Source: a virus
IMG/VR virus record: IMGVR_UViG_3300012950_000023
Span: 1 to 25,887 of that record
Strand: one strand, 5' to 3'
Length of the DNA stretch: 25,887 bases
The notes beneath the pieces were generated by a model. That model ran no database searches. It was not told the DNA's origin and saw only the letters and a list, made by a program, of their open reading frames with translations. Below are positions 7,319-23,391 of the stretch, one piece after another (within the stretch, counting starts at the first letter, position 1; the number at the start of each line of letters is the position of its first letter). Made by a program: the position numbers and the translations under genes.

Positions 7319-8059
7319 TCATTTGTCTTTCTCGGCGGTTTCGTCTTCAGCGTGAGTCTTATCTTTAAGAGTAACAAGAGGGGACTCGGGCTTTTCCTCA
7401 TCCTTCGATTTATCCCAACCGGTACGCTCACAGGTGATAAAACTGCTAAAAATAAACTTATCCGAAGATAAAGGCGTTAGCCCTAGATGGGGATGTGTCC
7501 ATCCGCAAGAAAACAGTGCCACACGACCGGCTTTTGCACTTACAGTCTGTTTTTGTTCAGGAAACTTGGTTCCACCACCACTTTCAACAGTATTCAAATA
7601 GATAACTGCACCAATAACGCGCTGTCTCTGCCCTCCTGAAGCATGCCACTCCCAAGGACATCCGTCAGTATGTTGTCGATACCAACCTTCCGCTTGAGAG
7701 TAATGCTGAAATCGAAATCCTGTGTCGGTCAAACCAGGAGCGCTCCATAATTCTCTATAAGTTTCTCTATATCTACCCAAAGCTATATACATGGCTTGCA
7801 TTGCCTTTTGATGCATAGTTGAAAATACTGAAACAGAATCAAGCCCTATCTCTTTTAAGTAGATACTGTCAATACTCGCATCCATACTAGATTTAACCTC
7901 ACGTCTAATTCCGCCGATAGTAGGACCGGGTGAAAATATTTTTCCATAATGGTGTCGTGAAGCGTCTAAGAACTCTTCACACAATTCTTCACTCAAAGCA
8001 CCATCAAGGGTCATCAAATAATTATTGCGACCACCAGGAAAATCAAATATTAAAGTCAT
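7319..8059 (-). CDS. 2OG-Fe(II) oxygenase
   Basis: The 246-residue protein carries the double-stranded beta-helix signature of 2-oxoglutarate/Fe(II) dioxygenases of the prolyl-4-hydroxylase type. The HTD motif is at His130/Asp132, then VIYLNTVESGGGTKFP at 152-167, AGRVALFSCGWTHPHLG at 177-193 with His189 as likely third ligand, and Lys201 in the place of the 2OG-binding basic residue. The family couples 2OG decarboxylation to hydroxylation of a peptide or small molecule; the substrate here is unknown. A charged Lys/Glu tail follows from about 215. Its ATG overlaps the halogenase TGA by four bases (ATGA), which suggests coupled translation. The YLNTVE-GG-T-FP core is shared with the 10146-10811 oxygenase. 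Confidence 0.85.
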   Translation of the reverse strand: MTLIFDFPGGRNNYLMTLDGALSEELCEEFLDASRHHYGKIFSPGPTIGGIRREVKSSMDASIDSIYLKEIGLDSVSVFSTMHQKAMQAMYIALGRYRETYRELWSAPGLTDTGFRFQHYSQAEGWYRQHTDGCPWEWHASGGQRQRVIGAVIYLNTVESGGGTKFPEQKQTVSAKAGRVALFSCGWTHPHLGLTPLSSDKFIFSSFITCERTGWDKSKDEEKPESPLVTLKDKTHAEDETAEKDK

Positions 8060-9588
8060 TTCTCCAACCTTGGGATAAGTTGCCCTCCGAAATCATCAAA
8101 ATTCCACTCTCCACGTTTCTTTGCAAAATCCTCATGGGCACGCGCCAAAACAGTCCTATGAGGTAATTCTGGATGTTTAGCGTTATTAGTTTGAGTTTCT
8201 TGAACCACGTTCATTGACGGAGTGATCGAGCCAAATGCTTCGATGCCGACTTGAGCACCCGCCCTACTAATCAGTCCTTGACCTTGTGCCACATGCCAAA
8301 AATGATTAGGTCCGAATAATTCGTACCCAGTAGAAGGAATGTCGTGCTGTTCCGGCCCTCTATGTTTAAACAACTCAATCAAAAAATGAAGTAATTCTGT
8401 TCTTGGGGCATCCTGCTGGTCTGCCCACATCGGAGAGTCTCTACGATCTGACACATAATGCATGCTCACCATAGTTAAAAGGTTATCGAACATAGAATCA
8501 AAAACCTTTAGATACCCGTGTTGATGAACACCCGAATTGGGTTCATAAGTAGGTAAATAAGAACAAATCAGCCGTGACTGCTCAATGGTCGCAGCTATAG
8601 AAGTGGCTTCTAAAGGTTCAACAAAATTAGATGCTAGACCAACAGCGACACAATTGAACTGCCATGAATTCTGTACCTTGTATGGCTCATATTTAATCGT
8701 TCGAGTATTTTTAACAGGTTCATCTATGTAATGTTCGACCTCGCCAATCGCATAGTCTTCATCTATATATCGAGATGAAAAAACATAACCATGACCTCGA
8801 CGTTCGTATGTAGGGATATCCCAGTGCCAACCAGCAGATAAGGCTTTAGCTTCTGTAAAAGGTTTTATTTGATGATTGCCAGGTGTTTGAAAGACTAAAA
8901 CACTGTCGCAAGGCAAGTAATCGCCAAAAGAACTTTGATGGATATCACCAAGTTCCTTGAGGATGATCTGCTTAAACCCGCTTGCATCTACAACGAAATC
9001 AGTTTCGATTTTCCCGTGAGAAGTAAGCACATGCGTAATATCTCCATTTTCAGGGTTACGGAATAAACCCTCAACTTCAGCCTCAATAAAGTTGATACCC
9101 ATGGTTAGTGCGTGACCCTTAAGGAACTCGTTTAGTTTTTGACTGTCAAAATGAAATTGATTTGCCTGTCTCCAAGGTTCTTTTGTATCAACAACAAGTC
9201 CTTTGATCAGTCCACGATGCGTCAAGGAGGGTGTCAATTTCCTACCGGAAGCATGAATGTAATTGTAGACACCATTAAAATTTCCAGTGTTGGTAAAAAG
9301 TTGACCGCCAGAAATGCTATGGAAATAATCTGGAGTGTGATTTGTCCAATCTAAAAAACGTATCCCGTATTTAAAAGTTGCCATTGAGGCTTTAATGAGA
9401 TCTTGACGGTTTATTCCCACTCGCTTTTCATAACTTGACCATTGTTCTGTACTACCCTCACCCACACCGATAGGGGGGATATCTTTCGAAGAAACAACGG
9501 TTACATCAAAGTCTTTAAAAGCTGATTTGATTGTTGTTGCTGCTATTAAACCTGCTTGCCCAGATCCGACTATTAAAATATTTTTCAT
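8056..9588 (-). CDS. Flavin-dependent tryptophan-type halogenase
   Basis: The 510-residue protein is close to full length for this family (PrnA is about 540). It has the FAD-binding GSGQAG at 8-13, VGEGSTEQW at 42-50, the catalytic lysine in ATFKYGIRFLDW (Lys73, equivalent to PrnA Lys79), and the diagnostic GWHWDIP at 253-259. The EPLEATS loop at 324-330 holds Glu327, the counterpart of PrnA Glu346. The family uses FADH2, O2 and halide to halogenate an aromatic or indole substrate. The usual E-S-T-G is E-A-T-S here, so the flavin-to-active-site loop differs. A marine cyanophage halogenase (VirX1) has been characterised, which makes a viral copy credible. It needs a flavin reductase, none of which is visible here. 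It abuts an oxygenase-like gene upstream with no gap and overlaps an oxygenase downstream. Confidence 0.93.
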   Translation of the reverse strand: MKNILIVGSGQAGLIAATTIKSAFKDFDVTVVSSKDIPPIGVGEGSTEQWSSYEKRVGINRQDLIKASMATFKYGIRFLDWTNHTPDYFHSISGGQLFTNTGNFNGVYNYIHASGRKLTPSLTHRGLIKGLVVDTKEPWRQANQFHFDSQKLNEFLKGHALTMGINFIEAEVEGLFRNPENGDITHVLTSHGKIETDFVVDASGFKQIILKELGDIHQSSFGDYLPCDSVLVFQTPGNHQIKPFTEAKALSAGWHWDIPTYERRGHGYVFSSRYIDEDYAIGEVEHYIDEPVKNTRTIKYEPYKVQNSWQFNCVAVGLASNFVEPLEATSIAATIEQSRLICSYLPTYEPNSGVHQHGYLKVFDSMFDNLLTMVSMHYVSDRRDSPMWADQQDAPRTELLHFLIELFKHRGPEQHDIPSTGYELFGPNHFWHVAQGQGLISRAGAQVGIEAFGSITPSMNVVQETQTNNAKHPELPHRTVLARAHEDFAKKRGEWNFDDFGGQLIPRLEK

Positions 9589-10149
9589 TTATTTTGGCCA
9601 CATGTATTTACTGAAAAAAAACGCTTCCTCTTCGGTTGGTTTTATGTTTAATTCAAACGGAAAACCGGATGGCATGATAATTCCGTCACCTGGTGAAACA
9701 TCAAATTCGACATCATGTTTAGCTAAACGCATCTGAGCATGACTAAAAGAAAAAAATGCACTTGTGCAGAATCCAGTGCTAGGGGCTTGCAGGTGAGAAG
9801 AGAAATTATTGCCAACAAATCTAAAAATATTTAGACCACCATCTCTTTTGAAAAAATTAGAATAGTAAAGTGCGTATTCGTAGAGGAATTTTTCGAGAAT
9901 TGTATTTACTTCTAATACTTTAGTTTTTATTTTTTTGAGAGAATCTTCTGAAGGTGAGATGTTTAAAATATGTCCAACAGGGCAAAAGAAACTTTTGCAA
10001 TAATCTAAATTCCCATTAGCTAGATAGAAAGGGAGATAGGACCAGTCACGACTCGCTTCTTGTTCCAATTCTTGTATTAATTGTTGCCCTTCATATTCGC
10101 CATGATAGATATGAACACCTGGCAACACTTCCGTTATCCCTTTAATCAT
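9589..10149 (-). CDS. Degenerate 2OG oxygenase-like protein (metal ligands lost)
   Basis: The 186-residue protein starts like the upstream oxygenase (PGVHIYHGEYEGQQLIQELE compared with FMHLYHADFDGQALIDAIE) and keeps a beta-helix-like C-terminal half. That half has FVGNNFSSHLQ at 111-121 and DVSPGDGIIMPSGFPFE at 150-166. The HxD site reads His119-Leu-Gln121 and the distal His is absent from the strand after GDGIIMPSG, so the Fe triad is not present. It is probably not a catalytic dioxygenase. It may bind a substrate or form a subunit with the neighbouring oxygenase or halogenase. Its ATG overlaps the stop of the upstream oxygenase by four bases, and it ends directly at the halogenase ATG. The oxygenase-fold assignment is moderate; the loss of ligands is read directly. 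Confidence 0.7.
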   Translation of the reverse strand: MIKGITEVLPGVHIYHGEYEGQQLIQELEQEASRDWSYLPFYLANGNLDYCKSFFCPVGHILNISPSEDSLKKIKTKVLEVNTILEKFLYEYALYYSNFFKRDGGLNIFRFVGNNFSSHLQAPSTGFCTSAFFSFSHAQMRLAKHDVEFDVSPGDGIIMPSGFPFELNIKPTEEEAFFFSKYMWPK

Positions 10150-10811
10150 ATAAAAAATCCTGCCATGCCGTATTTGACTTCTTCACTATTTGAGCCAGTT
10201 GGAGCAGAAGCATGCGCATAAATATATGAGGAGGGGAAAATAAGAATATTCCCAGCGATGCATTTGCTAACAGTATTTTGAAATGGGAAAATTGTCTCTC
10301 CGCCATCTTCTACGGTATTCAGGTAAACCACGCAAGAGATGATTCGTGGATCACCAGTACCTTGATCCGTATGAATTTTATATTGACCTCCGTGTCCATA
10401 TTTGTTAACAACCCACCCTTGGCATTCTTTTATGTAATCCAACCCGTAAGTTAAGCGATAATCCCAAACCGCCCGTTCTGCGTGATATAAGACGTCATAA
10501 GCAGCCTTCTGTAGTTCGGTAAAAGAATCACTGTCGCTGTTTTTAGCGCTTTTTTCAACCTCGTTGAGTAGGTTCTTAGAACGAGAATCCCTATGTCTGC
10601 TGTATCTAGATTCCCCCTTACTGCCGACAACACCCATTCCCCAGTTTGTGTTTTCACCATCAACCTCAATAGCATCTATTAAAGCTTGTCCATCGAAATC
10701 TGCATGATATAGATGCATGAAAGGTGCTGGTTCTGTGTGGGAAAAAGGTGTCGTTTCTAACGATTGTCGAGCAGAGTGAGGGAAAGGTATCCCTTCGGGG
10801 AACTTCACCAC
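10146..10811 (-). CDS. 2OG-Fe(II) oxygenase (prolyl hydroxylase type)
   Basis: The 221-residue protein has a complete active-site set: YKIHTDQGTGDPRIISCVVY with His147 and Asp149, YLNTVEDGGETIFPFQN at 163-179, GNILIFPSSYIYAH at 187-200 with His200, and Lys213 in VKYGMAGFF as the likely 2OG contact. It most resembles P4H-type oxygenases found in T4-like marine phages. The N-terminal 30 residues are Pro-rich and may be disordered. It is first in a tightly coupled run: oxygenase, degenerate oxygenase, halogenase, oxygenase. It overlaps the upstream small gene by seven bases. The substrate is not predictable. Confidence 0.88.
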   Translation of the reverse strand: MVKFPEGIPFPHSARQSLETTPFSHTEPAPFMHLYHADFDGQALIDAIEVDGENTNWGMGVVGSKGESRYSRHRDSRSKNLLNEVEKSAKNSDSDSFTELQKAAYDVLYHAERAVWDYRLTYGLDYIKECQGWVVNKYGHGGQYKIHTDQGTGDPRIISCVVYLNTVEDGGETIFPFQNTVSKCIAGNILIFPSSYIYAHASAPTGSNSEEVKYGMAGFFI

Positions 10812-11227: not shown

Positions 11228-11230
11228 TGT

Positions 11231-12002: not shown

Positions 12003-12178
12003 CAATAATTGAGTCGGGTGGCTCTGCGTATGCAGACGAAGCACCAGGAACTAGAGACAACGAAATTCGTATTTGGAATCCTCAAACAACCAGAATGGAG
12101 TGGGTTACTGACGGTTCTGCAACTTATTGTCCCGGATTTCGCAGGGAAAGATACGGAACGTTCGAAGAGGGATCATGA
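11999..12178 (+). CDS. Small 59-aa protein in overlapping gene chain
   Basis: The frame from ATG at 11999 (ATGA overlap with the previous stop) to TGA at 12178 encodes 59 residues: a short Gly/Ala/Asp-rich start, then IRIWNPQTTRMEWVTDGSAT and an Arg-rich FRRERYGTF near the end. The overlaps at both ends, ATGA each time, support it as a translated gene. The IWNPxTxxMEWV segment could be a small beta element of the type found in fibre accessory proteins, but I cannot assign a family. Confidence 0.6.
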   Translation: MTIIESGGSAYADEAPGTRDNEIRIWNPQTTRMEWVTDGSATYCPGFRRERYGTFEEGS

Positions 12179-12483
12179 GCGTTCGTAGTACACCGGGAGC
12201 GCTTTATGCCAATGACACCGAATTGGCATTTCTAGAGGGTGAAGTTGCCCGCATAATGTATGTTGCTGGACTCGATTGGGCGGACATCGACACCACAACT
12301 ATTGATGACATCGTTAATAAAATTCGTGAAACTTTTGTTGGAGGCAATTCAGTAGTTCCTCATAACGCAACCAATTCTGTTCTTCCTGCCGCCGATGAAT
12401 GGTTGAAAGTTCAAAGGGACGTGCTTACAGACCCACTTCGTCGTGCTTGGCGTAGACGACATATGGCATTGGCGCGTGCATAA
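12175..12483 (+). CDS. Small 102-aa protein before the Rossmann-like gene
   Basis: I place the start at ATG 12175, which overlaps the previous TGA as ATGA, rather than at the upstream in-frame TTG at 12127 that lies inside the previous gene. The product contains NDTELAFLEGEVARIMYVAG, then DTTTIDDIVNKIRETF, a Pro/Asn-rich turn and a strongly basic C-terminus (PLRRAWRRRHMALARA). The helix, T-I-D-D/E-I, K-I and Arg-rich end match the layout of the 90-residue protein at 6862-7134. The stop TAA shares its last base with the next ATG. Confidence 0.68.
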   Translation: MSVRSTPGALYANDTELAFLEGEVARIMYVAGLDWADIDTTTIDDIVNKIRETFVGGNSVVPHNATNSVLPAADEWLKVQRDVLTDPLRRAWRRRHMALARA

Positions 12484-13244
12484 TGGCTGAAAATCATTGG
12501 AACAAAGCCCTACGTGTAGCCCGCGACAGTTCGTCATTTGAGTATGACGCAGACTTTTCAAATAGTGAAGCTATAAACGACTGGTCAACTCTTGTCGTTG
12601 ACTATTTCACAGCGAATAACGTTGATATGCGTGATATCGCTGTGGGTGGAGATTACGACATAATCAAATATGACTTGTTTAAGACACCTAGCGAAAACTG
12701 GGAACACGTTTTATGGTGTGGATTCTTAGTAGAGGGCTTCATATCTCAACTTTTGAATAAAGACAATCCAAAAGTATTCACAGATAATCCAATGCCTGTG
12801 GATATCCAGCTTTCAGCGATTAATGGGCCAACCCCTAAAAGAAGGTACACATTCCTAAATGGTGATCAACTCTTCAATTTTGAAGAATTTGGCCTGTCCT
12901 TATCCACTACAACGAATAATTATTCAGATATCCAGTATTCAGTCATGGACATGCAAGATCTATTGAATGGCGACGAAGCAGGAACATTCGATTTGGTCAG
13001 AGTGAAAGCTCCGACCCTCCATTCCATTAACAATCGAATAATTGACGCAGTTCTAGGATTATTGAACGTTGGAGGCATACTACATTTTGCAGAAACTAGT
13101 AAATGGCAGTCTGCTTACAGTCTAGGGGTGCCTCATCGCCATTCCTATACTCGTTTTAACCGGCACATCGCAGCACAGTCGAATCTCAACGTATATCATG
13201 TACCTATGGAACAAGGAGCGATCATCGCTAAACGGTTGTCTTAG
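12483..13244 (+). CDS. Rossmann-like, methyltransferase-like protein
   Basis: The 253-residue protein has a C-terminal pattern typical of the late strands of class I methyltransferases: AGTFDLVRVKAPTLHSINNR at about 166-185 (strand 4 and the following helix), VLGLLNVGGILHFAETS near 190-206 (helix and strand 5), and NVYHVPMEQGAIIAKRLS at the end (strands 6-7). The early region has VAVGGD-like and LWCGFLVEGF segments, but I do not see a clean G-x-G-x-G SAM loop, so it could be inactive. Its counterpart is the 231-residue protein at 6167-6862. It is followed 8 bases later by the fibre-domain oxygenase. The target is unknown. Confidence 0.62.
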   Translation: MAENHWNKALRVARDSSSFEYDADFSNSEAINDWSTLVVDYFTANNVDMRDIAVGGDYDIIKYDLFKTPSENWEHVLWCGFLVEGFISQLLNKDNPKVFTDNPMPVDIQLSAINGPTPKRRYTFLNGDQLFNFEEFGLSLSTTTNNYSDIQYSVMDMQDLLNGDEAGTFDLVRVKAPTLHSINNRIIDAVLGLLNVGGILHFAETSKWQSAYSLGVPHRHSYTRFNRHIAAQSNLNVYHVPMEQGAIIAKRLS

Positions 13245-13252
13245 GAAAAACA

Positions 13253-14395
13253 ATGCATCTATATTCTGAACCGGATATCAGTGGGGCAATAATCACAGCC
13301 GACGACCATGAGCCAAACTCACCCGTTGAGGGTACTCTCTGGTATCGAAAAGCCAACAAGCGGGCGTATAGGTATAACGCAAACGAATCAACGTGGCAAG
13401 AAGTGCGTACTGACATCGCTCATCCACAACCAAAATTAAGTGACGAAGATCTTTCCGATATAGCCGGACTTGACTTTGACTCATACCCAAATGGTGTTGT
13501 TCATTTTAAAAAAATTATCGATGTAGATACAGATTTAATCCTTCCCTATGTTCGAGAAGAAGCTCAGCCATCAAACTGTGGACTTCAATGGATGGAAGAT
13601 GGCAACGAAAGATGGGCAGAAGACTATCAAGGCAACAGGCATGACATAAGTTTGCTGCTTGAACAACCCGCCCGACTAGGTGGATTGGGTGAGAACGAAC
13701 CCGTCATGGAACACACGCCAAAAGAAATAACTGATTTCTTTAATGAATGCGAACAGGCGTTCTATAAGTGCCTTATTCGTTACATCGATCTTTACCCCAT
13801 GGTACTAAATACAATTTGGTGGAGAATGAGGGGTCACGTTTTACACTACAAACCAGGTGCCCTCTTGGGTCTCCATAATGACAATGACACAAATTTCAGG
13901 GTTATAGACGGGCTTCGCTACCAGACGACAAGAAATATAGCGATTTACACAGTGTTAAACGCACAGATCGACATTAGTGAAAGCTACGAAGGTGGCGAAT
14001 TTATTTTCCCCCATTCAGATGCTGTCCTTAAAACGGAAACTGGTGATGCTGTTTTCTTTCCATCTAATTACCTAGGTGCTCACGGAGTAAAGAAAATCGA
14101 ATCGGGAGAACGATTTTCTTATTTAACTCAATTTGGACAGGGCAAAGAAGATGAGTTTGAAATAGTGGATGCTCCAGCTAGTTATGGTTGGTTACCCCCA
14201 GCTTTCATGCCGTGGATATTTCAGGATTATGAGAAGTTTTTTAACTCTGAATACTCAAAATCTGGGAATGACTGGCGTAGTAATCAAGGTAGTGAAGATG
14301 GATCACTAATGGCTATTCAAACAGCTAATCCTGTGTCCCAACAGCGTTCGCTGGAAGGGGACCCCGAAGGCGTTTATCAACCATATGATGCATGA
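13253..14395 (+). CDS. 2OG-Fe(II) oxygenase with fibre-like N-terminal module
   Basis: The 380-residue protein has two parts. Residues about 20-55 contain EGTLWYRKANKRAYRYNANE followed by STWQEV, a LWY...Y-Y-N...W-V module common in marine phage fibre and virion proteins. The oxygenase spans about 78-300: LYPMVLNTIWWRMRGHVLHY at 180-199, LGLHNDND with His208 and Asp210, EGGEFIFPHSD at 246-256, VFFPSNYLGAHGV with His277, and Arg287 in GERFSYL. The C-terminal 80 residues are Trp/aromatic-rich, then Ser/Gln-rich. The fusion suggests that the enzyme acts on, or is packaged with, a virion component, which is inferred. AGGA sits 6 bases before the ATG. It is first of three tandem oxygenases of the WW subfamily. 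Confidence 0.85.
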   Translation: MHLYSEPDISGAIITADDHEPNSPVEGTLWYRKANKRAYRYNANESTWQEVRTDIAHPQPKLSDEDLSDIAGLDFDSYPNGVVHFKKIIDVDTDLILPYVREEAQPSNCGLQWMEDGNERWAEDYQGNRHDISLLLEQPARLGGLGENEPVMEHTPKEITDFFNECEQAFYKCLIRYIDLYPMVLNTIWWRMRGHVLHYKPGALLGLHNDNDTNFRVIDGLRYQTTRNIAIYTVLNAQIDISESYEGGEFIFPHSDAVLKTETGDAVFFPSNYLGAHGVKKIESGERFSYLTQFGQGKEDEFEIVDAPASYGWLPPAFMPWIFQDYEKFFNSEYSKSGNDWRSNQGSEDGSLMAIQTANPVSQQRSLEGDPEGVYQPYDA

Positions 14396-15239
14396 AATGG
14401 AACATTATGCTAACGGCATTTCGATACAGCGGGCCGTTATCAAAACTCCCACCAACCTTGTAGAACAATTACTCGATCTACGCAGCGAGCAACTCCAAGA
14501 TCAATACGAATTTGAGGGTGATGTTGCAATTCATAAGACAAGTGGAATCAAATACGATTTAGAAAAAGACATTCTTCAACAACCAATCCGAGTTCATCCC
14601 CATGCACATGATATGAATGTTGAATTTTGGTCAGAATGTGATCGATTATGTTACAACGCTGTTCTCGAATACATTAAAAAATACCCAACTATTATCGGCT
14701 CCTTGTGGTGGAGAAATCGTGGTCACGTTTTGATTTATGAACCTGGAGCTTTTCTCGGACTACACCAAGATCAAGATGTGGGATACACCTGGAGTAATCG
14801 TGAAAATGTGATTGGACAGTATGAAGTTTCAACACGTAACACAATCAGTACCACCATGCACATGGTTGACTCCGATGGCGGAGAAGTGCACTTTCCGTAT
14901 GCCGATCTAACTATCGAAACGTGTGAGGGCGACATTCTTATCTTCCCTGCTAACTATCTGGCGGCTCATGAAGTCACTCCTGTCAAAGAAGGAAGCAGAC
15001 GTATTTCTTATCTAGCATGGTTTGGACAAGGCTCAGAAAAACCATTGACTCAACCCAATGGACCACTGGATATCGTAGAGCCACGAGAAGGACGCATTGA
15101 TCCATTCATGTGGTGTCCCACCCTGTCTGAAGATTTCATTAATGCTTCAGGTTGGACTGATGATGAAATGAAATCTAAATATCCAGCTTGGCGTCGAGAT
15201 TCTGTACCTAATTACCACATCAATAAAAAGGGTAATTAA
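14385..15239 (+). CDS. 2OG-Fe(II) oxygenase (WW subfamily)
   Basis: The 284-residue protein carries KKYPTIIGSLWWRNRGHVLI at 98-117, FLGLHQDQD with His127 and Asp129, DGGEVHFPYADL at 164-175, ILIFPANYLAAHEV with His195, and Arg206 in RRISYLAWFGQG. All metal and 2OG residues are present. The C-terminal extension (WCPTLSEDFINASGW) resembles the WLPELEKDF extension of the next gene. The start at 14385 overlaps the previous gene by 11 bases; ATGs at 14388 and 14397 are alternatives. It is directly followed by another family member with no gap. The substrate is unknown. Confidence 0.86.
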   Translation: MMHEMEHYANGISIQRAVIKTPTNLVEQLLDLRSEQLQDQYEFEGDVAIHKTSGIKYDLEKDILQQPIRVHPHAHDMNVEFWSECDRLCYNAVLEYIKKYPTIIGSLWWRNRGHVLIYEPGAFLGLHQDQDVGYTWSNRENVIGQYEVSTRNTISTTMHMVDSDGGEVHFPYADLTIETCEGDILIFPANYLAAHEVTPVKEGSRRISYLAWFGQGSEKPLTQPNGPLDIVEPREGRIDPFMWCPTLSEDFINASGWTDDEMKSKYPAWRRDSVPNYHINKKGN

Positions 15240-16013
15240 ATGTGGACAGAAGTTCTTGGACCTGGAATTATTAAATTCCATGAGGCTATCGAAGTCAAAG
15301 ATGGCGTTATAGATACTTTAGAGATGATGGCAGATCAAGCTTTACTTGAAATGTATGAGATGGACCCTAAAGGCAGATTTGGAGTCAATCAAAGCGGGCA
15401 CGTTATACCAATAGACCAAATCTCTAAAATGCCTATCAGAATTAATCAACCATTAGAGCCAGAGTTTTTTAGTTATTGCGATGAAGTCATCTATAAAAAT
15501 TTAATCACTTATTGTTCCCATTACCCAGACGCTTTGCCCTCTTGCTGGTGGTCCGCAGGAGGACATGTAGCGGTTTATAAAAGAGGAGCATTATTGGGTC
15601 CACATAGTGATAATGATGTTAATTATCATTATGGCGATCACCCCAAAGATCAGACGGCGTTGTTTAATGTGGTGTCTTCAAGTGTGGTTTTAGGTGCCGG
15701 GTTTAATGGCGGGAATCTGAAATTCGAATACCTAGATATTGAAACCAGAGTGGGACCAGGTGATCACATCCTCTTTCCAGCAAACTATATGGCTACTCAT
15801 TTGGTAACTGAAATACATGAAGGAACTCGCTACAGTTACATTTCCACTTTTGGACAAGGAACATCAGCACCGGACCGTGGCATTGTTATCCAACCAAAAA
15901 GAGAAGCTGGTTTACAAGGGCGGTCTTGGCTCCCTGAATTAGAAAAAGACTTTATCGCAGAAGTAGGGCCAGATCACAGGTTTGCGCCTAGAGCGCTCGA
16001 CCATCGGGATTGA
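15240..16013 (+). CDS. 2OG-Fe(II) oxygenase (WW subfamily), last gene of rightward operon
   Basis: The 257-residue protein has YPDALPSCWWSAGGHVAVYK at 95-114, LGPHSDND with His122 and Asp124, FNGGNLKFEYLD at 155-166, ILFPANYMATHLV with His187, and Arg197 in TRYSYISTFGQG. The active site is complete. The ATG begins right after the previous TAA, with AAGGG 7 bases upstream. Its last 26 bases overlap, in convergent orientation, the 3' end of the minus-strand oxygenase at 15988-16704, which belongs to the same subfamily. There is no room for a terminator at this junction, so the two transcripts must overlap. Confidence 0.87.
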   Translation: MWTEVLGPGIIKFHEAIEVKDGVIDTLEMMADQALLEMYEMDPKGRFGVNQSGHVIPIDQISKMPIRINQPLEPEFFSYCDEVIYKNLITYCSHYPDALPSCWWSAGGHVAVYKRGALLGPHSDNDVNYHYGDHPKDQTALFNVVSSSVVLGAGFNGGNLKFEYLDIETRVGPGDHILFPANYMATHLVTEIHEGTRYSYISTFGQGTSAPDRGIVIQPKREAGLQGRSWLPELEKDFIAEVGPDHRFAPRALDHRD

Positions 16014-16704
16014 TCAACTCGGAAAACCATTCTTGTCCTGTGCCTTGTCCCCCGACAGGCGTGCCTTGTCCAAAAAATTCGATATAGGAAATCCGTTCAC
16101 CTTCTGTAACAGGCTCCACTGCATGGGCACCAATGAAATTAGAAGGGTACATTATTAAGGTTCCCGCGTCTGGGTTGCACTTTGAATTAGATGTGGCGAA
16201 CTTTAGTGCTCCACCGGCATCAGCTTTTCTTAAAATTAAGGCACTGGAAATTTCGTTATAAATTGGAGTTTCACTTTCAGGTACCTGACCCGGTGTGTAT
16301 TCTATTTCTCGATCAGAATGACTGCCCATTCCTTGACCATTTGTGTAGCAGGCGATTTGACCATCGACTCTCCACCAAATGGATCTCCAGACCGAAGGGT
16401 AAATCTCAACATATTTGACCAAACAGTCATAAACAGCGTCTCTGATTTTATTATGAAATGTGAGATTTTCCCCATCGGGTGTTAAGTTCAAATAGCGGAC
16501 TGGGGAAATGCCGATTTGTTCTGGGGTGAAAGTGTAGCCGCCTCTATTAATGTAATTACCATCTTCATTAACGGTGTAGTCACTCGGTTCACATTCTTGA
16601 CGCAATAACATCCAAGCGTCCAACTCGTCTTGGTCTATCTCAACAGCGTCCATGAATTCTACAATGCCAGCCGCGTGTTCAACTATTTGCACAGTTCGCC
16701 CCAT
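15988..16704 (-). CDS. 2OG-Fe(II) oxygenase (WW subfamily)
   Basis: The 238-residue protein has YPSVWRSIWWRVDGQIACYT at 102-121, MGSHSDRE with His129 and Asp131, AGGALKFATSN at 163-173, LIMYPSNFIGAHAV with His194, and Arg204 in GERISYIEFFGQGT. The GH before the first strand is GQ here, unlike its four relatives. The N-terminal part contains DGNYINRGGYTF, which matches EGYINRNGYFF in the 17886-18701 product, so these two are the closest pair. It is last in the long leftward operon and converges with the plus-strand oxygenase. Its start overlaps the NAD-binding gene by 22 bases. Confidence 0.87.
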   Translation of the reverse strand: MGRTVQIVEHAAGIVEFMDAVEIDQDELDAWMLLRQECEPSDYTVNEDGNYINRGGYTFTPEQIGISPVRYLNLTPDGENLTFHNKIRDAVYDCLVKYVEIYPSVWRSIWWRVDGQIACYTNGQGMGSHSDREIEYTPGQVPESETPIYNEISSALILRKADAGGALKFATSNSKCNPDAGTLIMYPSNFIGAHAVEPVTEGERISYIEFFGQGTPVGGQGTGQEWFSELINPDGRAL

Positions 16705-17330
16705 CCTTCTGGCATGTGGTTGTTTTCATATGCATCTTCTTTGAATTCTCTAGCCTGTGTTCCATCAGGTAAAACAATTGGCTTACAGGACATAAGCGGA
16801 TCAGTCTTAAACAAATCTGCTACAAGATCTGCATCGTTTCCGCTAAGCCAAAGGAAACGTCTACAGTCTCCCTGTTCATGAGACATTGGGTATCCATAGA
16901 TCGCACATTCGACGTAGCTTTCAAGTAAAGATGCTTGTTTGCGAAAGTCTTCATAATTTGATGGATGAATCCAATTGCAATCAACAAAGATACCTTCGAA
17001 ATTAACTTCTAGAGCGGCATCGACGGTTGGACAAGACAAAATTTTAGGATAGGTGCCTTGTTCTGTCATCATCATCTGATCTTCTTCACTCCACTCAGCT
17101 TGTTCTCCGATTATCACGCCACCAAATTGAGCAATTGAAAACACGACATCTACCTCTTCGAATAAACGATCCCAAGTTCCCACTTCTCGCGTGCCGACTA
17201 AAGCGGCTCTGGCTTGTGTTAATTCTGAACGATCTCTGGTAGCAGAAAAAACATCATGTCCTGCTCTTAATAAGGAGTCGGCAATAGTTGTACCCATAGC
17301 ACCTGTGTGCATTACACCTATTCTTGCCAT
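16683..17330 (-). CDS. NAD(P)-binding 6PGDH/3-HIBDH-like domain protein
   Basis: The 215-residue protein begins with a Rossmann dinucleotide-binding motif of the beta-hydroxyacid/imine dehydrogenase class: RIGVMHTGAMGTTIADSLLR at 3-22, then AGHDVFSATRDRS. It continues with VDVVFSIAQFG near 60-70 and FVDCNWIHPS near 115-124, matching the yvDaNaisP motif of 6PGDH-like NAD-binding domains. The usual helical C-terminal dimerisation and catalytic domain (another 100 residues or more, with its conserved lysine) is missing, so the chain is short and may only bind the cofactor. Embedded between oxygenases, it could oxidise or reduce a hydroxylated product, which is an inference. Confidence 0.75.
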   Translation of the reverse strand: MARIGVMHTGAMGTTIADSLLRAGHDVFSATRDRSELTQARAALVGTREVGTWDRLFEEVDVVFSIAQFGGVIIGEQAEWSEEDQMMMTEQGTYPKILSCPTVDAALEVNFEGIFVDCNWIHPSNYEDFRKQASLLESYVECAIYGYPMSHEQGDCRRFLWLSGNDADLVADLFKTDPLMSCKPIVLPDGTQAREFKEDAYENNHMPEGWGELCK

Positions 17331-17893
17331 AGATCATCACTTAATATTCCTTGACGCGGCTCACGTTTAACTTTTATTCCATTTGGCTCCATAGGGTATA
17401 GATTACCCGCAATAGAAACCCTATGCCTGTCTACTATTTGACGCTCAGTCATATGTTGATAGTAAGAACGAAAAATAACTAACATTCCAGCTTCTGGTTT
17501 GATTCGTTCAAGAATCTCTTGCCGATTACTGTGTTGAATATGAAGCACCATTGATGCATCACCCTCTTTAGCACACGGGTAGTAACAGAAGGAAAAGTAT
17601 TCATCTGGATTCAACCAAGAGTTGTTCCAGTGAGAATGCGCCATAACAGATTCACCGGGTCCTGTGTGAACTCCCCAAATTGCGTCAATGTAATATGGGC
17701 GAACTAATATCTTGTTTGCTGCAGTTGTGATTTCGCGACGTAGATCCATGACTGTGTGACCAGTCGGCAATTCTAAATCTTTATTTGCTTCATGTTTAGT
17801 GAGAACCATTTCGTAAAGGGCAGATTCGTTAGCGTCTATGAAACAAGTCCAATAGTCTAAATCGATAATAGAGTGGTGTTTAAGGTCACGCAT
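17318..17893 (-). CDS. 2OG-Fe(II) oxygenase-like protein with HxH motif
   Basis: I use ATG 17893 (191 residues, 8-base overlap with the upstream gene, AGGA 13 bases ahead). The in-frame ATG at 17926 would add 11 residues and has no SD. Counting from 17926, the protein has TGPGESVMAHSHWNNSW with His97 and His99, YFSFCYYPCA, EAGMLVIFRSYYQHMTER with His158, and Arg169 in HRVSIAGNLYP. The HxH in place of HxD, with the distal H...R-x-S-I-x-x-N pattern, matches a known group of putative 2OG oxygenases (TIGR02466-like). Whether iron is bound with three His ligands is open. It overlaps the dehydrogenase-like gene downstream by 13 bases. Confidence 0.75.
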   Translation of the reverse strand: MRDLKHHSIIDLDYWTCFIDANESALYEMVLTKHEANKDLELPTGHTVMDLRREITTAANKILVRPYYIDAIWGVHTGPGESVMAHSHWNNSWLNPDEYFSFCYYPCAKEGDASMVLHIQHSNRQEILERIKPEAGMLVIFRSYYQHMTERQIVDRHRVSIAGNLYPMEPNGIKVKREPRQGILSDDLWQE

Positions 17894-18701
17894 CGGGGAG
17901 CTTATATCCTTTCGCCATGTATACATTCGTTGTCGTTTTCGCTAACTCTGGTTCCTTAAGGGGATCAGTAACTGCCTCGTTGAATTCCATATTGGGAGTT
18001 CCGTGACAGTACCACCCTACATGTGAGTACCTTGTGCCTCTGAGTACTTCTGAAACTGAGTGAGCAGCCATATAGTTAGAAGGAAATAAGACTATGTCGC
18101 CTTTGTTCGGTCGATGCTTAATTCCTAAATATTCCCAAGCTGTTACACCTCCTAGATAGTTTGTTCCATCTAGTTCTTCTTCGGTCTCAACAGAATCATT
18201 GAGGAAGGTGACCGAGGAAACCACAGTTCGAGTTGCTATTTGATCTGGAGGATGGGGGGAGCCATATTCATAATCCGTGCTTTGATCTGAATGCAACCCT
18301 AGGTAACAACTTTCGGGATACACCAAAACGTGGCCTTTAATTTTCCACCAAATACACTTACCGGCTAATGGGTATTTATGCAGATAATCCCATAAACATT
18401 CATCTCTAGCACTTTCGAGAGCAGTTAAAGCCGTCCTTGCCTCTGGGTCAGTGTCCCTATGAACATGAGCACAATGTCTAGGCATACTCCAGACTGATGC
18501 CGACGGAAAGAAATAGCCATTCCGATTTATATAACCTTCTTCACCAGTAATTGGATCATTACCTGGCGCGTACATCTCAGCGAGTTCTTTCTCAGCAGAT
18601 TTCTGAGAAAATTCGCGGATAAAGTCCCAATCTATTTCTACGGCATTTCGATAAAGAACAACGCCTCCGCCTAGTTCTTCACCTTCCGAATTCATGTGCA
18701 T
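17886..18701 (-). CDS. 2OG-Fe(II) oxygenase (WW subfamily)
   Basis: The 271-residue protein has KYPLAGKCIWWKIKGHVLVY at 109-128, YLGLHSDQS with His137 and Asp139, a longer variable loop (VETEEELDGTNYLGGV), IVLFPSNYMAAHSV with His214, and Arg224 in GTRYSHVGWYCHGT. The HxD...H...R set is complete. N-terminal EGYINRNGYFF links it to the 15988-16704 protein. The start overlaps the TauD-like gene by 23 bases; the second ATG at 18695 would shorten the overlap to 17. A fibre modification or small-molecule role cannot be told apart from sequence. Confidence 0.86.
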   Translation of the reverse strand: MHMNSEGEELGGGVVLYRNAVEIDWDFIREFSQKSAEKELAEMYAPGNDPITGEEGYINRNGYFFPSASVWSMPRHCAHVHRDTDPEARTALTALESARDECLWDYLHKYPLAGKCIWWKIKGHVLVYPESCYLGLHSDQSTDYEYGSPHPPDQIATRTVVSSVTFLNDSVETEEELDGTNYLGGVTAWEYLGIKHRPNKGDIVLFPSNYMAAHSVSEVLRGTRYSHVGWYCHGTPNMEFNEAVTDPLKEPELAKTTTNVYMAKGYKLPDA

Positions 18702-20424
18702 TCATTTCTAACATAATGTTTAAGAAGTCTCGGATGTCTTTAACTATTTCTTCACGACTCTCGTCTGTATTCAAATGATTGAAGCACCCATAAATAGTGT
18801 CAATGGCAAATTGAACTAGAAAGTCTTTTGGTGGGTCTCCATCAAAATCTACGTACCTAGCGAATGGAAGATTTTCCCATCTAAATGGTCGTTCCTGATG
18901 GCTGGGATAAGACATGAAGTCTGGGTAATGCCAAGCATGACCAGCATGACGCAAGTCCCTACGGGCCGACAGCATTCCGGCAACTTGACCTGCACATCCC
19001 TCAAACATCGGATCGTTTGTTGATTTATAGGCTCGGGAAATGTCTCCATTCCTTGTGAATAAAAAGATCTGACCGGTTGGATCAGTTTCAGGATTCCAAA
19101 AGGGAGCATATTTAGTAACCAAAATATGATTTTCGTCAAATGGGACCTTTACAACATTAAATTTAGGCTCCCTTGGTTCGTCTTGTTCTGCCCAATCCTC
19201 ACCTTGAACACTTTCCCATAAAGCTGTTATTCCATCTGGGGCATTTGAAAACTCATCTCTGCTGATAAAAAATACAGTTACAGAGTCAATTAAATGTTCG
19301 AATTCAGGGAGGGCATAAATTCCTTTAGTTAATACCAAAGGAATGTGATCCGGATTAGCTATAGCGCTTGCCCAGTCATCTCGTTCAGGTGCATTATTTT
19401 CACTACTAAATTTTGTGGTAGCTGTTTTTTGATCTGCTTTAGGTGGATTACCTGTATTCGGAGTAGTTTCAATCTTCGTGAATTTTTCAGGATCGTAATA
19501 TGGTTTTTCTATTCCCACTTCATAACGAGTAAAAACCCTTTCACCAACTTTGAATTCAGGGCTGAAAGCGTGAATGAGATTTCGATTATCCCAAATGAAA
19601 AGATCTCCGACATCCCAAGACCATCTAAATCGAAGTTCCGGTTTTTGAAGCTCGTTAAACATCCATGCTTTAATTTCACCCCACTGTTCGGTGTGCCCAC
19701 CTACGGGAATACATTCTGTTGGATTAAACCAAAACGATGTCTTACCTGTAACGGGATGAGTTCTCAAAGCAGGGGTTGTTACCGATTTTCCAAAATGAAG
19801 AGAAGTCAGTTCATCCTCCCCGTGGTGCGTTTCGGAATCAGATCCCAACGAATGAACTACCTCAATACCTTTCAAATACTCTTTCATGTTTTCAGGCATG
19901 ATTTCGTATAAGTATTCCAGACTCACCACCATGGTGTCGTCGTTGCCCACATTGTCTGTTCGTATATCCATACGCATACTCTGCAATGAGGGAGGCAATT
20001 CTATGAATGGGTTATCCAAATGCCAGTTACCTGTAATAAAATCTTCAGAATTTTCAAATGTGTTTAAAGGATTTGTAGCCTTCATCCAAGCATGATCGAT
20101 ATTGATGATGTTTCCCTCAGAAGGCGGCTTGTCATCGTCCCCTCTGTAGATAGCGCCAAGTATCTCTACATGTTGTTCAATCGTGGGATGTAAATGTTTA
20201 AACCCAATGGCTTGATGTTTAGTTAAAAGATCAGCATAAAAATCAGAATCGTTAAGTATTTCTTCTGGAGTTACTCCTTGAATCCTTAAGCCCAATCTTC
20301 CAAGATGTAATCCCGATGCGACTCCAGTACCGCTTGGGGAAGAATTGCCGTCACCAAGTTCACGAGGTTCATCTGCCTCTTCCATCGAACTATCGTAACG
20401 TTGACCTTCTGGTATTTCTGTCAT
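18679..20424 (-). CDS. TauD/TfdA-type 2OG dioxygenase with extra C-terminal domain
   Basis: The 581-residue protein is about twice the usual 280-300 residues. The N-terminal half has the TauD/TfdA fold: LTKHQAIGFKHLHPT near 67-81, GNWHLDNPF with His135 and Asp137, VTGKTSFWFNPTECIP near 225-240, and DLFIWDNRNLIHAFSP with His285. Arg296 and Arg300 stand 11 and 15 residues after His285, as in TauD (His255, Arg266, Arg270). This class hydroxylates small sulfonates, acids or amino-acid derivatives. Residues about 345-581 are an additional domain that I do not recognise, with several Trp and His (GHAWHYPDFMSYP) and a Cys (FEGCAGQVAG). A Ser/Gly/Glu-rich N-terminal 35 residues is probably disordered. 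It starts directly at the SET-gene stop. Confidence 0.88.
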   Translation of the reverse strand: MTEIPEGQRYDSSMEEADEPRELGDGNSSPSGTGVASGLHLGRLGLRIQGVTPEEILNDSDFYADLLTKHQAIGFKHLHPTIEQHVEILGAIYRGDDDKPPSEGNIINIDHAWMKATNPLNTFENSEDFITGNWHLDNPFIELPPSLQSMRMDIRTDNVGNDDTMVVSLEYLYEIMPENMKEYLKGIEVVHSLGSDSETHHGEDELTSLHFGKSVTTPALRTHPVTGKTSFWFNPTECIPVGGHTEQWGEIKAWMFNELQKPELRFRWSWDVGDLFIWDNRNLIHAFSPEFKVGERVFTRYEVGIEKPYYDPEKFTKIETTPNTGNPPKADQKTATTKFSSENNAPERDDWASAIANPDHIPLVLTKGIYALPEFEHLIDSVTVFFISRDEFSNAPDGITALWESVQGEDWAEQDEPREPKFNVVKVPFDENHILVTKYAPFWNPETDPTGQIFLFTRNGDISRAYKSTNDPMFEGCAGQVAGMLSARRDLRHAGHAWHYPDFMSYPSHQERPFRWENLPFARYVDFDGDPPKDFLVQFAIDTIYGCFNHLNTDESREEIVKDIRDFLNIMLEMNAHEFGR

Positions 20425-20816
20425 TATTCCTTATACTCTATTTCGTGCGCTATCCAATATTCTGAACCATAATAAGATAGTAACTCCTCATTGGCAGCAA
20501 TGTCTTTCGTAGCTTTAAATACGTATAAATCTCTTTCTTCATCACAATCCCAATCTATTGATCTTCCTTCTATTGATTTAGCACAGTTGTAAACACAAGC
20601 AAATCCAAGTGGAATTGTGAGATATTTAAAATCTTTTCTATGTCTGGGCCAATTAAACACGTAACTTATAAAATCTCCCTCAAAATGCCCTGTTATGTAA
20701 GGACATTCTTCAAGAAGTTCGTCTTTTACAATGCTTTCGTTAGCAAAAACCCCAAAACCATGTATTGGGGATTTTCTAATCTCTAACTTGCGATTCATGT
20801 AAAGCGCTTCTGTCAT
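20424..20816 (-). CDS. SET-domain protein (putative lysine methyltransferase)
   Basis: The 130-residue protein fits a minimal SET domain: KSPIHGFGVFANESI at 15-29 (first motif), LGFACVYNCAK at 70-80 with Asn77 in the place of the NHS/NC motif, then DLYVFKATKDIAANEELLSY ending in YG at 116-117, matching the A-x-x-D-I-x-x-x-E-E-L...Y-G end of SET enzymes. SET enzymes transfer methyl groups from SAM to lysines of proteins. The core has the key Asn and Tyr residues. It lies between the TauD-like gene and the DUF6065 gene; ATG 20798 is an alternative start. A viral or host protein substrate is possible, but the target is unknown. Confidence 0.82.
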   Translation of the reverse strand: MTEALYMNRKLEIRKSPIHGFGVFANESIVKDELLEECPYITGHFEGDFISYVFNWPRHRKDFKYLTIPLGFACVYNCAKSIEGRSIDWDCDEERDLYVFKATKDIAANEELLSYYGSEYWIAHEIEYKE

Positions 20817-20830
20817 TCTGTATCTCTTTG

Positions 20831-21565
20831 CTATTCGGGCACATCAAGAACAGGATGCCCTTCATGCTTGGGACCAATTCGTTCTCCCTTTTCGTCTAAA
20901 CCCGTTCGTATACTCCCCATCCAAGTCCAAGGGTTATCAATCATTTGCTGTGATTTGGCCTCGTTGTAGGTCACTCGTGGATCTATTAATTCGTCAGGGT
21001 TTTCCCATGCTCCTGAAGTATTAAATCTGACTTCAGGTAACGCATCATCTTTAACAAAGGTAAACCACATGTAGGGCATTCCTTTAGGGAATGTAACCGT
21101 TGAGCCAGTTGTAGTTATTTTCCAATTCATAGCAAACGGGTCAGGCCACCATCCGGTAATCATTGCCGTTAAAGGAACAGCGCCGTTTAAAAAGAAGTTA
21201 GGTGAACCGGAAATGAAAGTGCTGTAACCTTCAGGCGGACGAAATATCCAATCAGTGGCGATGGATAATATCCCGACAACCGAAGGCATTGCTAAATCTC
21301 GTTCATACTCGTGATCACCGTGAAGCGGTCCTGTATTGCACTGTCTAGTTAGTCCATTAATGACTTTAGGAACACTTACTTCGCTTTCCAGTGTGACAGT
21401 TATTTCTTCAGGGAGAATAAGTTCCCAGCCATGCGTGTTTGCAGTAGTTAGAGGTAGGCATTTATAAGCATGTTTTTTATAAGTGGCATCCATCCAATCT
21501 CGACGGGGGCGGGATTGGCGTATCTCAGGAGGATCATGGTGCATCTTAATAAGATCTACCTCCAT
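20831..21565 (-). CDS. DUF6065 family protein
   Basis: The 244-residue protein matches my memory of DUF6065. It has KKHAYKCLPLTTANTHGWEL at 30-49 (C-x-P...AN-x-x-GWEL), WIFRPPEGYSTFISGSPNFF at 106-125, MITGWWPDPFAMNWKIT at 135-151, and VTFPKGMPYMWFTFV at 157-171. The biochemical function is unknown to me; the fold is probably a beta barrel or cupin-like jelly roll. It sits between the SET gene (14 bases apart) and the thioesterase (10-base overlap). The 5276-6148 protein carries a diverged form of the same core, so this window has two copies. Confidence 0.8.
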   Translation of the reverse strand: MEVDLIKMHHDPPEIRQSRPRRDWMDATYKKHAYKCLPLTTANTHGWELILPEEITVTLESEVSVPKVINGLTRQCNTGPLHGDHEYERDLAMPSVVGILSIATDWIFRPPEGYSTFISGSPNFFLNGAVPLTAMITGWWPDPFAMNWKITTTGSTVTFPKGMPYMWFTFVKDDALPEVRFNTSGAWENPDELIDPRVTYNEAKSQQMIDNPWTWMGSIRTGLDEKGERIGPKHEGHPVLDVPE

Positions 21566-22041
21566 GTTTCCCCTTTGAGGTTTTTGGGGTCGAAACGTTT
21601 AATCATCATGGAGCTAGAGCCAAGAGCAACTACTCGACCCTCATTTTCCACTCTCGCTGTCACAAAGCTCGATGTCTTTCCGAGACTGTGAATAGTTGAA
21701 TATGCGTCAACTCGCCCTCCCTCTACGCTTTTCAAATAGTTGATATTTAAATTCATAGTCGCAACCCATGAACCTGTGGGGACAAAAGGATAAACGACTA
21801 GAGGCATGGCGGTATCTAAAAAGGCTGCCGTGCACCCTCCGTGTAATTGATTGGTAAACAAGAGATGCTTATCTTCAACGTCGAAATAGCAATGAGATAC
21901 ACCGGTTTCGGGATTGATTTCTGCACAAACCATTCCCAAAAAGGAACCAGCACCTTCACTGTGACCGCGTGTACCAAATTTAAATCCGACTACATTGTCA
22001 ATCATTCCTGCATTTAGGACTTCAAGCGGAAGCAGACTCAA
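21556..22041 (-). CDS. Hotdog-fold thioesterase (PaaI-like)
   Basis: The 161-residue protein has the PaaI-type hotdog motifs: LLFTNQLHGGCTAAFLDTAM near 60-79 with the HGG turn and Asp76, SWVATMNLNINYLKSV at 91-106, and a strand-rich end (SSFVTARVENEGRVVALGSS). The class hydrolyses acyl-CoA or aryl-CoA thioesters. A TTG at 22041 is the start used, preceded 5 bases away by AGGGGG on the minus strand; the first in-frame ATG is at 22005 and would remove 12 residues. The upstream oxygenase overlaps by 20 bases. A thioesterase next to oxygenases and a TauD-type enzyme would fit a small-molecule pathway better than protein modification, which is an inference. Confidence 0.84.
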   Translation of the reverse strand: MSLLPLEVLNAGMIDNVVGFKFGTRGHSEGAGSFLGMVCAEINPETGVSHCYFDVEDKHLLFTNQLHGGCTAAFLDTAMPLVVYPFVPTGSWVATMNLNINYLKSVEGGRVDAYSTIHSLGKTSSFVTARVENEGRVVALGSSSMMIKRFDPKNLKGETWR

Positions 22042-22711
22042 CCTGACCCCCTAAAGTTTCAGGAAGATCCCCACCAGCCATACCTGGTCGTTGATGATTC
22101 CTGTCGTTATAGTCATACATCGTGACGGCTGAATACTTCACGCCACTTTCTATTGGCAATGATTGATGAACATAAGGGTAGTTAGAAGGAAGGATCAGAA
22201 GGTCGCCTGCTTCTGGCGTGAATTTAATATCCATATTGGGAATAACTAACTCTCCACCTTCATAATCGTCATTCAAATAACCAATTGTTGAAGTAACCGC
22301 ACAATAAGAAAAACCATGATCTGGATGAAGAGCAAAATGTTGACCTTCCGTGTACCTCACAAAGTTTGTAGCCTCTTCAAATTCGAGTTTGATGTTGTAA
22401 AGCGAAGAATAGTGATCATGAACTGCTTCCCTTACAGGTGTTATGTACTCTGTGTAAATCGCTCCTAGATCTTCAAAACCTTCAGCTGTGACAGGGAGAG
22501 CCATTTCTGCCATTTTGAAATCACTGCAATCTCGATAATCAGGCATTTGATCCATGTCGCCAACAGTTGCGTTTTTCCAGCAAAAAAACTCGTGATCACT
22601 TTCCCCTAAAGTATCTTCAAGACGTTCAATAAGGTTTGCCGGATCAGGCCAAACATTTTTATATAAAATAATAGCCATAGATGGATGGCCACAATAACCT
22701 GCGATTTCCAT
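22022..22711 (-). CDS. 2OG-Fe(II) oxygenase (YEGGE subgroup)
   Basis: The 229-residue protein has GQHFALHPDHGFSYCAVT with His129 and Asp131, IGYLNDDYEGGELVIPNMD at 143-161, GDLLILPSNYPYVHQS with His182, and Lys192 in VKYSAVTMY as the likely 2OG contact. All ligands are present. It resembles P4H-type oxygenases. The start ATG overlaps the upstream stop (TAATG). It pairs with the 22711-23391 gene, whose core Y-N-D-F-EGGD is similar. The two are the most upstream oxygenases of the leftward operon. Confidence 0.87.
   Translation of the reverse strand: MEIAGYCGHPSMAIILYKNVWPDPANLIERLEDTLGESDHEFFCWKNATVGDMDQMPDYRDCSDFKMAEMALPVTAEGFEDLGAIYTEYITPVREAVHDHYSSLYNIKLEFEEATNFVRYTEGQHFALHPDHGFSYCAVTSTIGYLNDDYEGGELVIPNMDIKFTPEAGDLLILPSNYPYVHQSLPIESGVKYSAVTMYDYNDRNHQRPGMAGGDLPETLGGQVESASA
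22047..22052 (-). promoter_or_regulatory. SD-like AGGGGG deciding the TTG start of the thioesterase
   Basis: On the minus strand AGGGGG lies five bases before the TTG at 22041, inside the end of the upstream oxygenase gene. The alternative ATG at 22005 has only AGGA one base away, which is too close. This favours the TTG start. Confidence 0.55.
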
Positions 22712-23391
22712 TAATTTTCTCCTAAATCTGTAATCGTAGTAAAAGCAGGGCTAGTCCATCTAACCCCAGATGTTATTTCCTTAATTCCATGCAAATAGTT
22801 CACATCACCTGGATGCGCAATGGCCATTCCAGCTTCAATTTCTAAGTGGATGCCATGGTCAGGATAATAAATATCGCCACCCTCAAAATTATCATTCCAG
22901 TAGATAATTGAATTGATGTCGTAAGTTGGGAACGGATTGGGGGTTCCATCATTTAACTGTTTATCAGAATGTGGGCTTTGACTATTTCCTGGTAGCCACC
23001 GGACGACTACTGGGGGTCTCATGTATACCCTGTAATTAAATTTCTCTTCAATAACGCTCTTGATCTTTATGTTGTATTTATCAACGAGGTTATATAGTTC
23101 TGGATATTTCCTTCCAAGAATTTCCGAATTACACATACGATCCCACCAATAAGAAGCGTCATAGATGCACACGCCTTCTTCATTGAAGATGTCAGGGCTG
23201 GGATTATGCCACTCGTTAATATCTTCTACTAATTCTTGGACTCTTATTAGATCATCAGCCTCTACGAAATTTTTCTTTATGATGATTTGATCACTGGAGT
23301 TGCCAAAATGACCCGGCTCTATTAAAGAAAAATCAAAATCTACATGCGAATTGTTCTCCGGCATAACGTTTAGCCTATCAGAAACAAGCAT
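22711..23391 (-). CDS. 2OG-Fe(II) oxygenase (FEGGD subgroup)
   Basis: The 226-residue protein has VVRWLPGNSQSPHSDKQLND with His141 and Asp143, IIYWNDNFEGGDIYYPDHG at 162-180, EAGMAIAHPGDVNYLHGI with His201, and Arg211 in GVRWTSPAFTTI. The set is complete. The N-terminal segment (VEDINEWHNPSPDIFNEEG) is longer than in its neighbour and contains aromatic-rich WWDRMCNSE. The ATG used is the first; an internal ATG ten codons in is an alternative. The peroxidase-like gene ends 11 bases upstream. Confidence 0.87.
   Translation of the reverse strand: MLVSDRLNVMPENNSHVDFDFSLIEPGHFGNSSDQIIIKKNFVEADDLIRVQELVEDINEWHNPSPDIFNEEGVCIYDASYWWDRMCNSEILGRKYPELYNLVDKYNIKIKSVIEEKFNYRVYMRPPVVVRWLPGNSQSPHSDKQLNDGTPNPFPTYDINSIIYWNDNFEGGDIYYPDHGIHLEIEAGMAIAHPGDVNYLHGIKEITSGVRWTSPAFTTITDLGEN

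Follow-up and report, generated by a model that had tools for sequence, protein, structure and literature searches.

Why would a phage carry a dozen oxygenase-type genes within 16 kb? This question is raised by the virus record IMGVR_UViG_3300012950_000023 of IMG/VR, analysed here as the complete record of 25,887 bases (hereafter, the window). In its oxygenase island, ten genes have intact Fe(II)/2-oxoglutarate (2OG) motifs, an eleventh (17318) has an HxH variant, and a twelfth relative (9589) lacks metal ligands. A preliminary description of the same DNA had counted eleven oxygenases plus one degenerate copy, and had proposed that they form a dedicated system of oxidative modification; each of the twelve genes is indeed an open frame at the position it gave. 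The explanation favoured here, with a probability of roughly 0.6, is that the island is a phage-encoded, operon-linked module for the maturation of a tail adhesin, hydroxylating the proline pairs of an X-Phe-Pro-Pro repeat and probably other residues.

Linkage of a tail-protein repeat with the oxygenases

The repeat is encoded by a short gene absent from the preliminary description (24448-24888, minus strand), which is located between the long tail fibre and the first oxygenases. Its product, the proposed substrate, has a PASTA-like domain (21.3 bits, slightly under the Pfam cut-off of 23.2) and, after it, 15 tandem X-Phe-Pro-Pro units (24451-24642), X being Phe, His or Tyr. The gene holds the same place beside the island in five related contigs (G001, G003, G006, G007 and G010), and in other contigs the repeat is found at the end of proteins with PASTA-like or fibronectin-III-like domains.

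The linkage was approached from the substrate side, searching IMG/VR with a degenerate DNA pattern of four X-Phe-Pro-Pro units and no enzyme information. Fifty control contigs were picked by a common tail-fibre motif, and the slice sets had near-equal total length. PF13640 oxygenases (up to 11 per contig) were carried by 47/50 repeat contigs compared with 2/50 tail-fibre controls (nominal Fisher p 5e-22). Likewise, 60 of the 80 repeat slices contained oxygenases, 228 of them in 735 kb, versus 2 of 79 control slices, with 2 in 722 kb. Slices around collagen-like repeats contained an oxygenase in 4/80 cases, indicating that the link is specific to the X-Phe-Pro-Pro repeat and does not extend to Pro/Gly repeats generally; a collagen-type substrate, with Gly-X-Y repeats tracking with hydroxylases, is therefore unsupported. 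When the search was reversed, the repeat was found in 42/50 contigs retrieved through the five-paralogue oxygenase group described below, against 1/50 for a reversed-pattern control.

The arrangement of these loci is also regular, with 217/228 oxygenases downstream of the repeat and 205/228 sharing its strand. Closest to the repeat is an oxygenase of the type encoded at 22711 (31/60 loci) or 22022 (28/60), that is, one of these two in 59/60. Both enzyme types are present in 31, and a DUF6065 protein in 30, of the 40 slices that extend 4 kb or more downstream. DUF6065 belongs to the core of the module together with the repeat and hydroxylases, occurring in 36/50 repeat contigs and, as a relative, in 41/80 repeat slices and 0/159 control slices; a relative of the glutathione-peroxidase-like protein of the window occurs at 17/80 repeat loci and in none of the 159 controls. 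Three loci (L124, L127 and L156) have the repeat and no PF13640 gene in the record, and at six others (L126, L139, L149, L152, L175 and L185) no PF13640 gene was detected downstream in the slice.

The capsid gene of the near relative G001 was found in 3/46 repeat contigs, several contigs of 75-106 kb being without it, so the module seems to be shared by different phages, within the limits set by fragmentary contigs. Among 84,980 bacterial and archaeal species, only 17 stretches match the repeat. Three of them (L477, L482 and L486, from two bins of metagenome-assembled genomes in GTDB) resemble the tail protein, two with adjacent oxygenases, and are probably phage contigs binned with cellular DNA; a cellular origin of the repeat was rejected, as most remaining matches are unrelated LFPP/HFPP frames. 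A tblastn search with the PASTA-repeat protein, a query partly masked as low complexity, returned nothing in phages, and no description of FFPP repeats in phages was found in the openly accessible literature.

Conservation and gene content of the island

Nearly the whole window is collinear with an independent contig of 114 kb (G001; 41-84% identity), and most of it is also present in a 65-kb contig (G003, collinear) and a 16-kb contig (G002); further related contigs are variants with TauD duplications. PF13640 matches number 7-10 per contig in G001-G007 and 4-5 in G008-G012. Between the window and G001, synonymous sites (pS) are saturated, with non-synonymous divergence (dN) of 0.10-0.39 for the catalytic oxygenases; the value for 9589 is 0.575, and constraint there is weakly shown. 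The kept gene order, saturated synonymous sites and mostly low dN rule out both a chimeric contig and a decaying array of duplicates. Together with the two-way link to the tail repeat, they lend good support to the dedicated system postulated in the preliminary description.

The same description had viewed the island against T4-like marine phages. Capsid, portal and sheath genes, which the window itself does not hold, could be read in G001, where they are nearest to those of Gordonia, Brevibacterium and Arthrobacter phages; a T4-like (Kyanoviridae) origin was accordingly rejected for this relative, and the host is probably an actinobacterium. The Pfam sheath model PF04984 misses even the G001 sheath, which PHROGs detects, making a PF04984 scan of the repeat contigs uninformative.

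As for density, nine oxygenases in the 26-kb window compare with 2 in 722 kb of tail-fibre control slices, far above chance against this background. Well-studied cyanophages have at most about five 2OG oxygenases per genome (Table 3, PMC3037559). The unusual density that had been noticed is real, although not a one-off: many uncultured phages have arrays of 5-11 oxygenases, 4/50 repeat-bearing contigs having 11 PF13640 matches and one 10-kb stretch elsewhere also holding 11.

Two enzymes of the module core lie closest to the repeat (oxygenase and accessory genes, and the fibre and lipoprotein-like genes, are on the minus strand unless marked plus). The gene at 22022-22711 encodes a 2OG oxygenase of prolyl 4-hydroxylase (P4H) type, whose profile matches bacterial P4Hs, the lysyl hydroxylase LH3 and the P4H of PBCV-1. 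Its model (predicted local distance difference test, pLDDT, 89.7) has as best fold match in the PDB an algal P4H with a (Ser-Pro)5 substrate (3gze, 4.5e-11), and H129, D131, H182 and K192 are all invariant among the 44 sequences of the family. With the HxD...H triad, the 2OG-binding lysine and the modelled double-stranded beta-helix fold, the family is predicted to be structurally a P4H. The neighbouring gene (22711-23391) is undetected by the Pfam 2OG models. Its best profile match is human prolyl 3-hydroxylase 1 (P3H1; 8k0e_A, 5.4e-10), and its AlphaFold model (pLDDT 92.3) has a 2OG fold closest to 8k0m/8k0f, also human P3H1. In 38 relatives H141 and D143 are invariant, and H201 and R211 are present in at least 90%, so that the modelled HxD...H...R site corresponds to a putative P3H-like catalytic domain. 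The protein has 226 amino acids, the size of the catalytic domain, and neither the long N-terminal extension nor the CRTAP/PPIB partners of P3H1 were found; it is thus better termed a P3H-like domain than a P3H1 orthologue. Relatives in the phage collection are all at or below 34% identity.

HxD or HxH motif positions were found in all 11 non-degenerate oxygenases. PF13640 was above cut-off for 7319, 10146, 13253, 14385, 15988, 17886 and 22022, and 15240 fell slightly under it (23.7 vs 27 bits), with its motif located. The 2OG-binding residue is lysine in 22022, 10146 (10146-10811) and 7319 (7319-8059), as in P4Hs, the latter two being likewise of P4H type, and arginine in 22711. Five paralogues with 26-34% identity form one group: 13253-14395, 14385-15239 and 15240-16013 (all plus), 15988-16704, and 17886-18701, in which IWW..GHVL..LGLHSD is read. 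Their group profile matches PKHD hydroxylases weakly, PKHD-type enzymes ranking ahead of P4H, and a tblastn search with one member gave no match in phages. Across the profiles tested, protein prolyl, lysyl and PKHD hydroxylases are favoured, TET-like matches being far weaker. PHROG 2297 ("DNA endonuclease") and PHROG 3531 ("ferrochelatase") hit the 2OG domains in several of the window's oxygenases, and these names look like annotation errors propagated through cyanophage records.

The 17318-17926 gene belongs to PF13759 (27.5 bits, cut-off 27), and the 18679-20424 gene is a TauD-type oxygenase (90 bits) with a C-terminal extension. The HxH variant of the former is present in its orthologues and in a homologue from a Pelagibacter phage, which indicates that it is native to the family and no sign of decay. 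Ligand loss at 9589-10149 is equally shared by its three orthologues, so this gene, which has 41% identity to G001 and evolves faster than its neighbours, is a conserved pseudo-oxygenase; its product is possibly a partner subunit. Both peculiarities had been noted in the preliminary description, as had the other enzymes among the oxygenases, all identified with Pfam: a flavin-dependent halogenase (8056-9588), a SET-domain protein (20424-20816), a 4HBT thioesterase-like protein (21556-22041) and an NAD(P)-binding dehydrogenase-like protein (16683-17330). The halogenase (PF04820, 301 bits) has the GxGxxG and WxWxIP motifs of flavin-dependent Trp halogenases, as well as EPLEATSI. The DUF6065 gene of the module core is located at 20831-21565 (125 bits), and the glutathione-peroxidase-like gene (23403-24446, motif CGNYPQ) has its true start at about 24446, a longer open reading frame being an artefact of the repeat frame.

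In G001 the island closes the tail module, with the long tail fibre on one side and a giant lipoprotein-like protein on the other. Most oxygenases are in overlapping frames, downstream of the fibre gene and the short repeat gene and in the same direction; a promoter and terminator scan was uninformative, its count being below shuffled expectation. The fibre is present in the window as its C-terminal part (24891-25886; orthologues of 1703-1775 amino acids), and in relatives its N-terminus is a common phage tail-fibre start (FRRDTAANWT..GEIGYETD..KIGDGSTAW). A fibre-like protein with Gly/Pro/His repeats (2818-4155; GNPG and HHFAGN, with GDPP in a relative) is a second candidate substrate. At the far end, the giant lipoprotein-like gene (1-2031; lipobox FSAC, long Asp/Glu/Trp-rich repeats, orthologues of 1635-1733 amino acids) adjoins a small membrane-protein gene (2036-2482). 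Two gene pairs, 12127-13244 and 6167-7134, flank the oxygenases, each coding for a small protein and then a possible methyltransferase-like one, and are syntenic in relatives; the member at 12483-13244 (plus) is a weak methyltransferase match (E 0.017). A phrog_7084 protein with a weak dUTPase-like match (5276-6148) borders the island and is kept in G001 and G003.

A proposed maturation module and its alternatives

Gene content, synteny, constraint, motif conservation, folds and the association with the repeat in both search directions are direct observations. In collagen, P3H and P4H act on neighbouring prolines. As P4H-like and P3H-like enzymes lie nearest a Pro-Pro repeat, hydroxylation of its proline pairs is the simplest reading, and we infer from it the substrate, the proline sites, the order of action and the purpose. 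The 22022-type and 22711-type enzymes would hydroxylate the pairs post-translationally, and the remaining oxygenases, plus the halogenase in this clade, may modify other residues or fibre proteins, such as the His/Gly/Pro-rich product of 2818-4155. Once modified, the repeat could act as a rigid, polar rod, either displaying or shielding the end that binds the host, or concealing that end from the host. More speculatively, the glutathione-peroxidase-like protein could clear peroxide from uncoupled turnover. Evenly balanced, in our judgement, is the broader claim of a hydroxyproline-based phage adhesin, in which an X-Phe-Pro-Pro rod is matured by P3H- and P4H-like enzymes with DUF6065 and lineage-specific oxygenase arrays, common to phages with different capsids and absent from the cultured phages of the searched collection.

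Several points weigh against proline hydroxylation of the tail repeat. Two enzyme types would suffice for a Pro-Pro repeat, which leaves the need for 8-11 unexplained, and the proposal assigns no obvious function to the thioesterase, the dehydrogenase or the SET protein. A 2OG oxygenase fold is a poor predictor of substrate, and the fold similarity is moderate (TM about 0.6, 14-19% identity). Oxygenases are absent from the record in 3/50 repeat contigs and from 7 of the 40 slices reaching 4 kb or further downstream; these may be fragments or true exceptions. When repeat loci were clustered with the repeats masked, 70 groups were obtained at 80%/30% and 15 at 70%/10%, and with 15 groups at the loosest setting the 80 slices are not independent and the Fisher p is overstated.

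The surplus of enzymes is also what speaks for a different target within the tail. The oxygenases far outnumber the distinct prolines of a four-residue repeat, whose X position is F/H/Y, the adjacent fibre-like proteins have a high content of His, Gly, Asn and Pro, and the five-paralogue group is closer to PKHD-type than to P4H enzymes. Tail proteins might then be modified at His, Asn, Asp, Phe or other residues, the repeat being a co-travelling structural partner; this is unlikely, since the enzymes that nearly always lie nearest the repeat are the most prolyl-hydroxylase-like ones.

A pathway in which the oxygenases, halogenase, thioesterase, dehydrogenase and methyltransferases synthesise or modify a secondary metabolite or a surface sugar would agree with the intact halogenase motifs and with the interpretation given to a halogenase and 2OG-enzyme cluster of jumbo cyanophages (PMC7824862). 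It does not predict a tail-protein repeat, however, and no carrier protein, synthetase, carbamoyltransferase or glycosyltransferase was above the Pfam cut-off among the scanned window proteins. The halogenase, moreover, is confined to the closest relatives (6/13 records of the group), whereas oxygenases and tail repeat stay together, and we consider such a pathway improbable. Very improbable indeed is a function in host take-over or DNA repair, tuning 2-oxoglutarate and nitrogen status or repairing nucleic acid, as has been put forward for the 2OG enzymes of cyanophages (PMC3037559): the genes lie in a tail-fibre cluster, away from DNA metabolism, and the profiles tested match protein hydroxylases best.

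In phages of marine and fresh waters, 2OG oxygenases are some of the commonest genes without an explanation, and they are normally classed as "auxiliary metabolic genes". Should tail-adhesin maturation prove correct, a large class of viral genes would have to be reassigned from metabolic functions to the assembly of the virion and the recognition of its host. The oxygen, iron and 2-oxoglutarate of the infected cell would then be determinants of host range. The X-Phe-Pro-Pro repeat would be a substrate open to direct testing, as well as a simple sequence tag by which the system can be found, and DUF6065 would gain a link to a process.

Comparison with known systems

The P4H of chlorovirus PBCV-1 hydroxylates proline-rich repeats encoded by that virus. 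This enzyme (vCPH; 5c5t/5c5u) has the same virus-encoded P4H fold, matched here by profile and by fold, but it is a single enzyme of a eukaryotic virus. To our knowledge, PBCV-1 has neither a conserved array nor an X-Phe-Pro-Pro repeat. Collagen P4H and P3H1 (8k0e) likewise act as two 2OG enzymes on neighbouring prolines, and 22022 and 22711 are closest to these classes; they differ in being animal enzymes, with P3H1 complexed with CRTAP and PPIB, and in their Gly-Pro-Pro substrate. Mimivirus L230, a lysyl hydroxylase/glucosyltransferase, provides a 2OG hydroxylase modifying the virus's own repetitive structural protein, a viral collagen (PMC9614988), although the target is lysine in Gly-X-Y repeats and the enzyme is a bifunctional one of a giant virus.

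Among phages, Kyanoviridae such as Pelagibacter phage HTVC008M and P-SSM2 have runs of four or five oxygenases close to virion genes, one of them next to a PrnA halogenase. However, these clusters have fewer genes, of other families, with a T4-type virion, and no X-Phe-Pro-Pro repeat in the stretches examined. Jumbo cyanophages combine a halogenase with several 2OG enzymes, explained by metabolite synthesis (PMC7824862), but their cluster also encodes carbamoyltransferases, HAD phosphatases and a HemK methylase, none of which appeared in Pfam scans of 29 window proteins, and is proposed to yield a metabolite or a decoration of the capsule. The VirX1 halogenase of cyanophage Syn10 (PMC8407142) is a phage flavin-dependent halogenase with characterised chemistry, its in vitro substrates being small aromatics. 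Other explanations offered for cyanophage 2OG genes are a role in 2OG metabolism or in DNA repair (PMC3037559).

The literature searched, with subscription papers outside its scope, holds no report of the X-Phe-Pro-Pro repeat or of its linkage to oxygenases. The preliminary description, which could match the island to no described system, is borne out for the open literature and the phage collection; the concern that it might be a standard module applies insofar as the arrangement is widespread in uncultured phages, yet it is not described in the material searched. This phage module is therefore undescribed as far as was searched, and it joins viral hydroxylases already known to act on viral repeat proteins.

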